The translations under genes and the position numbers were made by a program. A stretch of 64,000 bases of DNA from Elusimicrobiota bacterium (GTDB lineage Bacteria > Elusimicrobiota > Elusimicrobia > Elusimicrobiales > Elusimicrobiaceae): positions 62,001 to 126,000 of the forward strand of contig JAQXJI010000007.1 in NCBI GenBank assembly GCA_029008615.1, written 5' to 3'. The notes below the pieces were generated by a model. It was not told the DNA's origin and did no database searches. It saw nothing but the letters and a program-made list of their open reading frames with translations. Below are positions 12,827 to 14,290 of this stretch, piece after piece (the first letter of the stretch is position 1; the number at the start of each line of letters is the position of its first letter).

Positions 12827-12848
12827 ATTTAACCTAGCTGGTTAAGTG

Positions 12849-12876
12849 AAAGCCCCGGTTTTCGCCGGGGCTTTTT
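12849..12876 (+). terminator. Terminator after gyrA
   Basis: AAAGCCCCGG / CCGGGGCTTT with a TTTTCG loop and T run. It lies between convergent gyrA and trpB; the opposite strand has only a short T tract, so trpB may share it weakly. Confidence 0.85.
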
Positions 12877-12901: not shown

Positions 12902-14110
12902 TTATATTTCAGTTCCGTAATGCTCGGTTATAAAGTCTATATCTTTATCGCCTCGCCCGGATAAATTCACCAAGATATTTTTATCTTTCGGCATAATTTT
13001 TGCCAGTTTTAAAGCGTAAGCCACCGCGTGTGAGCTTTCAAGCGCGGGGATAATTCCGTCGCTTTTGCAAAGAGTGTAAAAAGCTTTTAAAGCTTCTTCA
13101 TCGGTTACGGCATCATATTTTACGCGGCCGGAAGCTTTTAAAAATGCGTGTTCGGGCCCTATGCCGGGATAGTCCAAGCCGCTGGCTATTGAATATACCG
13201 GCGCGGGGGAACCGTCTTCGTTTTGCAAAACAAGGGATTTAAATCCGTGTAAAATGCCGTCTTTGCCGTAACGAGCGGTGGCGGCGTTCTGCCCGATTCC
13301 GCAGCCCTTTCCCAAAGATTCCACTCCGTAAAGCTTTACGGAATTATCATTTAAAAAGGCAGAAAATATGCCTATGGCGTTGCTTCCACCGCCAACGCAG
13401 GCCGCTACGGCATCTGGCAGCCGGCCGGTAAGCTCAAAGATTTGCTCTTTTGCTTCCGCGCCGATAATGCTTTGGAAATCTCTTACTACGGTAGGAAAAG
13501 GATGCGGCCCCACTACCGTTCCTATACAATAAAGGGTATTATCCAAATCCCGCATATAGGCCTGAAATGCGCTGTCTACGGCTTCTTTTAAAGATTTTTG
13601 GCCGAAAGTTACTGGTACTATTTTGGCGCCGAGCAGCTTCATTCTTATTACGTTGGGCCGTTCTTTTTTTATATCCGTTTCGCCCATATGTATTTCACAT
13701 TCAAGGCCGAAGTATGCCGCCGCGGTTGCCAAAGCCACTCCGTGCTGTCCCGCACCCGTTTCGGCAAGAAGCTTCTTTTTGCCTAGTTTCTTTGCCAACA
13801 GGGCTTCGCCCATACAATGATTCAATTTATGAGCGCCGGTATGGTTTAAATCTTCGCGTTTTAGATAGATTTTTGCTCCGCCGGTTATTTTGTTAAGCCC
13901 TTTTGCCAAAGTTATCGGCGTGGGACGGCCCTGATAATGTTTGCGTATATAAGAAAGTTCTTTGGTAAATTCTTCGCTGTTTTTAAGTTCTTTATAAACC
14001 TCGGCTATTTTATCGGTTTCCTTTTTAAGTTCCGCCGGAATAAAAGAACCGCCGTACGCGCCGAAAAAACCCTCTTCGTTTGAATTTTGTTTATTTAAAT
14101 TATTTGTCAT
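12902..14110 (-). CDS. trpB: Tryptophan synthase beta subunit, solitary
   Basis: 402 residues, normal TrpB1-type length. It joins serine and indole to make tryptophan using PLP. The PLP lysine is in HTGAHKLNH (usual HKINN), with [10 protein letters not shown], the phosphate loop GGGSNAIG and the SGRGDKD end. No trpA or other trp gene is adjacent, so it either pairs with TrpA encoded elsewhere or salvages indole. Its AGAGGATATT ribosome site is preceded by a leader peptide with two adjacent Trp codons and attenuator-like hairpins, so expression is probably set by charged tRNA-Trp. Convergent with gyrA. Confidence 0.97.
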
Positions 14111-14141: not shown

Positions 14142-14217
14142 CCGCGGTTTATGCCCGCGGCGAAAAGAAAATACGGAATACTGTCGTTAAATTGAAAAAT
14201 AAGCGGCGCTCAGCGCC
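14142..14217 (-). promoter_or_regulatory. trp-type transcription attenuator upstream of trpB
   Basis: Two hairpins follow the leader Trp codons on the minus strand. GGCGC-TGA-GCGCC (14205-14217) has the leader stop codon in its loop. CCGCGG-7 nt-CCGCGG (14142-14160) is followed by TCTTACTTATATTTT and lies about 31 bases before the trpB ATG; it is the candidate terminator. A third small hairpin, CACCA-TCCTC-TGGTG (14217-14231), spans the Trp codons. A ribosome stalled at TGGTGG would cover the 5' arm of the stop-codon hairpin and free its CCGC-containing arm to contact GCGG of the terminator. That alternative pairing is short (4 bp), so the switch mechanism is inference. Confidence 0.65.
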
Positions 14218-14275
14218 ACCAGAGGATGGTGTTGAAAGAAGAAAAAATGTTTTGTTTAACGGATAATTCTTCCAT
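14210..14275 (-). CDS. trpL: trp leader peptide with tandem Trp codons
   Basis: A 21-codon ORF missing from the ORF track. It ends ...NTILWWR followed by TGA. Two consecutive TGG codons sit three codons before the stop in a short peptide directly upstream of trpB, the hallmark of ribosome-mediated trp attenuation as known from enteric trpL. The ATG is six bases after a TATACT -10 hexamer, and no Shine-Dalgarno is visible, so the mRNA may begin at or very near this ATG (leaderless). Downstream hairpins complete the attenuator. The peptide itself needs no function beyond being translated. Confidence 0.72.
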   Translation of the reverse strand: MEELSVKQNIFSSFNTILWWR

Positions 14276-14281
14276 AATCAA

Positions 14282-14290
14282 AGTATATCA
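14282..14290 (-). promoter_or_regulatory. Extended -10 promoter of trpL-trpB
   Basis: Minus strand TGATATACT, an extended -10, ends six bases before the trpL ATG. No good -35 lies at 16-18 bases; an A-rich tract occupies that place. The remaining bases to nusB (14291-14438) are AT-rich and hold TATAAT at 14401-14406, a probable nusB -10, and no other evident feature. Confidence 0.6.

Follow-up and report, generated by a model that had tools for sequence, protein, structure and literature searches.

Organization of the trpB locus

The window, a 64-kb stretch of DNA from an Elusimicrobiota genome, contains a solitary trpB gene (12902–14110, minus strand) that encodes a tryptophan synthase beta subunit of 402 residues (TIGR00263, 552.7 bits; cut-off 392). 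The gene is flanked by gyrA, which is convergent, and by a divergent nusB-like gene. Along the minus strand, from 14290 to 14110, the upstream region consists of an extended -10 element, 6 bases, an ATG, a 21-codon ORF, a first hairpin (H1), the U-rich tract TTATTTTT, a second hairpin (H2), the Shine-Dalgarno (SD) hexamer AGAGGA (14120–14115) and trpB.

The leader ORF (14275–14210, minus strand) encodes MEELSVKQNIFSSFNTILWWR, which terminates with the residues ILWWR and is followed by a TGA stop codon. Codons 19 and 20 are tandem TGG triplets (14221–14216, minus strand), the presumed site of ribosome stalling. This is the sole short ORF in the window featuring tandem TGG codons at most 5 codons from the stop. 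The predicted extended -10 promoter element, TGA-TATACT, spans positions 14290–14282 of the same strand. As its hexamer ends 6 nt 5' of the leader ATG, the predicted transcription start lies at or adjoins the A of the ATG, and the leader mRNA is probably leaderless.

H1 (GTGGCGC-TGA-GCGCCGC; 14220–14202, minus strand) has the leader stop codon as its loop. The Trp codons and the Arg codon provide the 5' arm, and the 7 nt past the stop provide the 3' arm. The tract TTATTTTT (14202–14195, minus strand), directly 3' of H1, is terminator- or pause-like. H2 (GCCGCGG-7-CCGCGGT; 14161–14141, minus strand), a candidate terminator, is followed by TCTTACTTATATTTT, about 20 nt upstream of AGAGGA. A preliminary description of this DNA had reported the ORF ending in ILWWR-stop, the hairpin with the stop codon as loop, and the second GC-rich hairpin with a T-rich tract ahead of the trpB ribosome site, and all three are present. 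The U-rich tract following H1, the extended -10 element and a complementarity between the leader and the SD region are additional features.

Leader copies in other genomes

True trpB genes were found in 6 of the 90 genomes surveyed in the family of the window. In this family, G031 and G056 (71% identity) carry the leaders MQSKVSRIVSSSFCTSFLWWR and MQSQNAFSLVFSFCTSNLWWR, each closed by a stop codon, before trpB. A fourth leader, MQKMIMTSLVSFSSARVFWWR, also closed by a stop codon, precedes trpB in L045 (72%), a sheep-colon MAG filed as Alphaproteobacteria. All four leaders are exactly 21 codons long and end with WWR-stop, preceded by L or F in the counterparts of the window ORF. The preliminary description had proposed conservation of the WW codons in relatives as a check, and the tandem TGG is the same in all four leaders. 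Between the start of the first TGG and the end of the H1 3' arm, 15–18 of 19 nt are identical. In codons 2–18, just 1–8 of the 17 residues are shared, and differences are equally distributed over the three codon positions. Since codons 2–18 have diverged while the WWR-stop-hairpin core has been kept, the constraint, as judged from these alignments, is on the codons and the hairpin and not on the peptide. The string TGN-TATA[AC]T-N6-ATG is identical in three of the four leader loci (the window, or G000, G031 and G056); the -10 at the corresponding place in L045 is poor (CATAGC). The SD hexamer is identical at all four loci.

Upstream regions of 110 trpB genes were scanned for a short ORF with a Trp codon and the stop codon lying in a hairpin, followed by a U-rich tail. 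The pattern was found in 5 of these regions, compared with 0 of 2200 shuffled sequences. The fifth region, in the IMG/VR contig L274, carries an unrelated leader, MTFLRKYIFNQAGGNIWA followed by a stop codon, upstream of a trpB gene located next to an alpha-amylase-like gene and an AAA-ATPase-like gene. Its hairpin, an 11-bp stem with one bulge, encloses the Trp codon and the stop and is followed by UUUU; its terminator score is low (-12.6). The H1 topology is thus found again, at the level of predicted folds, on an unrelated leader sequence. The L274 leader (1324–1459) contains a single Trp residue, and the contig may derive from a host instead of a virus. The sample hence comprises four related leaders and one independent leader.

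A covariance model (R1) trained on the four known copies, for which scores of these same copies are circular, detected no additional copy in the 341 phylum genomes scanned, in sets of 385 and 17 alphaproteobacterial genomes, or in most of the trpB loci fetched. A 17-nt motif matched 120 loci in viral contigs, none with TrpB, and a search for the motif combined with a distant CGCG pattern in 90 genomes mostly returned coding-sequence noise. In Rfam, no family reached the gathering score, and no trp leader was matched even at an E-value of 10.

H1 stands out in conservation and score

H1 is kept in the four genomes, and its noncoding 3' arm pairs better than shuffled sequences in each of them. 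In the window, the arm surpasses 99.8% of shuffles (p 0.002), and the p-values for the other leaders are 0.0005, 0.004 and 0.03; the window H1 as a whole has a z-score of -2.9; here as below, folding is thermodynamic only, and shuffle p-values are per sequence and uncorrected. In contrast, H2 is borderline in the window (p 0.05), beats shuffles in L045 (p 0.03), and is no better than shuffles in G031 (p 0.22) or G056 (p 0.92).

Terminator scores, used for ranking only, also single out H1. Gene-end terminators in the window score 3–49, and the 95th percentile of random windows is -35; a bidirectional terminator in the trpB/gyrA intergenic region (12848–12875) served as a yardstick. H1 and H2 score 12 and -18 in the window (12.0 for H1 with its tail; -17.8 for H2), -12 and -43 in G031, -22 and -69 in G056, and 4 and -34 in L045. 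H1 thus outscores H2 in all four leaders. H1 scores of the window and L045 fall among those of real gene-end terminators. Those of G031 and G056 fall below the recognisable gene-end terminators of the window and above background, and are weaker because the U-run begins 4–6 nt past the H1 stem.

Gene content and the trpR contrast

Ten trpB genomes were examined, four carrying the leader and six in which none was detected. Neither trpA nor trpC was found in any of them, although all control genomes were positive, in agreement with the earlier proposal that a solitary trpB is the target. The window genome is 99.6% complete, while six of the ten genomes are less than 90% complete or of unknown completeness; the absences of trpA, trpC and trpR are therefore strongest for the window genome. 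As trpA and trpC were not found, indole, the substrate of TrpB, would have to come from elsewhere. Indole salvage via TrpB has been reported for gut bifidobacteria (PMC11085991).

No trpR gene was detected in the four leader genomes, whereas trpR is present in all six relatives of the same order that carry trpB without a detected leader. In five of them, trpR lies directly 5' of trpB; in the sixth, trpB is located at a contig edge and the upstream region is unreadable. The preliminary description had regarded relatives with trpB and no leader as potential counter-evidence. Such relatives do exist, but as all six carry trpR they lose their force as evidence against function, and the pattern reads as a regulator swap. 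The two-gene trpR-trpB arrangement, with no detectable trpA or trpC, is found in L004, L006, L119, L120 and L121. A second TrpR-family gene is present at G068:C1:787822-788070 (L148), distant from the trpB gene of the same genome.

A tree of TrpB places the four proteins from leader loci in one group (SH-aLRT 88), separate from those linked to trpR; vertical inheritance of trpB in the phylum of the window was not rejected (p-AU 0.114). On these sequences, trpB is likely to have moved horizontally together with its leader. Because the four leader-bearing genes group together, the trpR contrast may reflect a single evolutionary event. L045 was also considered as a contaminant contig and this was rejected, since the neighbouring Lgt protein is 77, 63 and 52% identical to those of three other genomes of its class, and about 30% identical to Lgt of the window's phylum. 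Judged by its Lgt gene, the L045 contig is genuinely alphaproteobacterial. Within the window's family, trpB is patchily distributed in varying neighbourhoods (gyrA/nusB, mutL/cysK-like, hpt/ftsH-like), a pattern suggestive of gain and loss.

Proposed attenuation without an antiterminator

We consider it somewhat more probable than its negation that the leader is a Trp-responsive, ribosome-mediated attenuator of solitary trpB that operates without an antiterminator, a ribosome stalled on the WW codons blocking H1 directly. Transcription would begin at or beside the leader AUG, and ribosomes would translate the 21-codon ORF, the peptide sequence of which would be irrelevant apart from the Trp codons. 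The 5' arm and loop of H1 would consist of UGG UGG CGC and the stop codon, with the U-rich tract coming next. When charged tRNA-Trp is plentiful, ribosomes would pass the WW codons, reach the stop and leave; with the ribosome gone, or not yet arrived, H1 would form, and transcription would end or pause ahead of trpB. Under tryptophan shortage, the 5' arm would be covered by a ribosome stopped at WW, H1 would not form, and the polymerase would enter trpB. TrpB would then make tryptophan from serine and external indole. H1 would likewise be covered by a ribosome that has reached the stop codon, and fed and starved states would have to be told apart by dwell time and by pausing of the polymerase.

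Control could instead be translational: the pyrimidine-rich stretch before WW would pair with the trpB SD, a stalled ribosome would mask the stretch and free translation, and H1 would merely aid folding. The leader segment ATCCTCTG (14227–14220, minus strand), which overlaps the first TGG, is a perfect 8-nt complement of the SD region CAGAGGAT (14121–14114, minus strand). This candidate duplex beats all 1000 shuffles, and in the predicted fold of the window ATCCTCTG sequesters the SD. A complement of 9–10 bp is found in L045 (p 0.013). The SD is paired in the predicted free folds of all four leaders (unpaired probability 0.00–0.13), the 24 nt upstream of WW are 75–88% pyrimidine in each, and the actinobacterial LEU element provides a precedent for codon runs that pair with an SD (PMC1262725). 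However, the pairing is no better than with shuffled leaders in G031 (p 0.52), G056 (p 0.59) and L274 (p 0.42), and SD accessibility is significantly below shuffles only in the window. Moreover, when a ribosome is placed on WW, the SD is predicted to be still mostly paired elsewhere; in the constrained folds, pairing of the SD with the pyrimidine-rich spacers occurs regardless, masking any release. Nor would translational control account for the U-rich tail conserved after H1. We regard translational control as the principal mechanism as unlikely. Anti-SD pairing would provide another possible output in two of the four leaders; in the window and the alphaproteobacterial copy, a stalled ribosome would also free trpB translation. 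Of the structures compared, only H1 is shared by all five leaders, and direct occlusion of H1 is therefore preferred, with a translational output as a possible addition in the window.

Somewhat less likely still is classical trp attenuation, in which H1 would be the 1:2 hairpin, H2 the 3:4 terminator, and a 2:3 antiterminator would form upon stalling. H2 of the window is GC-rich with a T-rich tail, H2 marginally surpasses shuffles there and does so in L045, and at each of the four loci some hairpin ends 16–22 nt upstream of the SD. Yet none of the four leaders shows 2:3 pairing above that of shuffled sequence (p 0.14–0.55), although the same test is positive in two classical Marinilabilia attenuators (p 0.02 and 0.007). 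The 4-bp candidate antiterminator, which the preliminary description had itself pointed to as a weakness, is indeed that weak. H2 does not differ from shuffles in G031 and G056, lacks a U-tract in G056, and scores below H1 in every leader. Finally, when the window leader is folded under the constraint of a ribosome on WW, an analysis that the preliminary description had suggested, H2 stays in the predicted MFE structure; starvation would thus not remove H2 as a terminator. Neither 2:3 nor anti-SD pairing was found in L274. The 2:3/3:4 scheme was accordingly rejected as the common mechanism on the basis of 2:3 pairing, H2 shuffles, terminator scores and the constrained fold. Of the trp attenuation originally proposed, the Trp-codon leader with a hairpin that a ribosome could control stands in four genomes, whereas the classical layout does not.

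That the ORF and hairpin are decaying or fortuitous, with trpB constitutive or transcribed from its own downstream promoter, is very improbable: short ORFs are easily over-read and trpB relatives without a detected leader exist, but the 21-codon length, WWR-stop, hairpin and extended -10 element have been kept independently against a diverged background, and the 5 matches among trpB upstream regions compare with 0 expected.

Relation to known leaders

Leader attenuators for amino acids are already known, as is the overlap of regulatory codons and terminator in the absence of an antiterminator. Closest in layout to the window leader are the actinobacterial ilv leaders (Seliverstov et al. 2005), in which regulatory codons lie within the terminator hairpin and no antiterminator was described (PMC1262725). 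These contain branched-chain codons and precede ilv operons, whereas the present leaders feature Trp codons and a stop codon in the loop. Replacing codons upstream of S. coelicolor ilvB left regulation unaffected (PMC1262725).

The E. coli trpL leader (Rfam Trp_leader) similarly features a leader ORF with tandem UGG codons and a hairpin involving the Trp codons before a trp gene, with a presumed stall-to-induce logic. In contrast, in the leaders described here 2:3 pairing is unsupported, a separate 3:4 hairpin is not consistently supported, trpB is the single target, the stop codon is the loop, and Rfam gives no match. The Sinorhizobium meliloti trpL transcript starts at the ATG of trpL and is leaderless (PMC7298713), as predicted for the window leader mRNA; the S. 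meliloti system differs in its target, trpE(G), in its leader peptide and hairpins, and in the terminator/antiterminator alternatives described for it. Chlamydia trachomatis trpRBA, which serves to obtain tryptophan from scavenged indole with no de novo synthesis and in which trpR adjoins trpB (PMC7755916), resembles the trpR-trpB relatives, but trpA is present and control is exerted by TrpR and YtgR. The trpL proposed for C. trachomatis is a long and unvalidated element without tandem Trp codons.

In the open-licence papers searched, we found no Trp counterpart that has the stop codon in its loop, serves a solitary trpB and contrasts with trpR in relatives. Tentatively, and with less confidence than attaches to the mechanism itself, the leaders may represent a minimal class of trp attenuator devoid of an antiterminator, in which one or more Trp codons and the stop lie in a single terminator hairpin. 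This class would control solitary trpB in bacteria lacking de novo tryptophan synthesis, would have moved with trpB between phyla and would replace the TrpR repressor encoded next to trpB in relatives. If so, this would be the smallest workable trp attenuator: sensing codons and controlled hairpin would share nucleotides, so that no alternative structure is needed. Such a single-gene module would explain how Trp auxotrophs could adjust indole salvage to the available tryptophan. One order would also offer a natural comparison between repressor control of trpR-trpB and attenuator-controlled trpB, and searches for attenuators that require an antiterminator would overlook leaders of this kind.

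Classical-looking trp attenuators are located about 500 nt upstream of trpB in Marinilabilia (L086:2476-2640 and L109:2511-2675). Their leaders, MNNNHSHIWWRELDS and MNNMHLHIWWRQLDF (MNN..HIWWR..), each closed by a stop codon, are accompanied by an antiterminator (CAGGTGG/CCACCTG) and by the terminator ACCGCAGG-N8-CCTGCGGT, which has an 8-bp stem and is followed by a U-run. In L099 (Anaerophaga), this terminator is partly visible.
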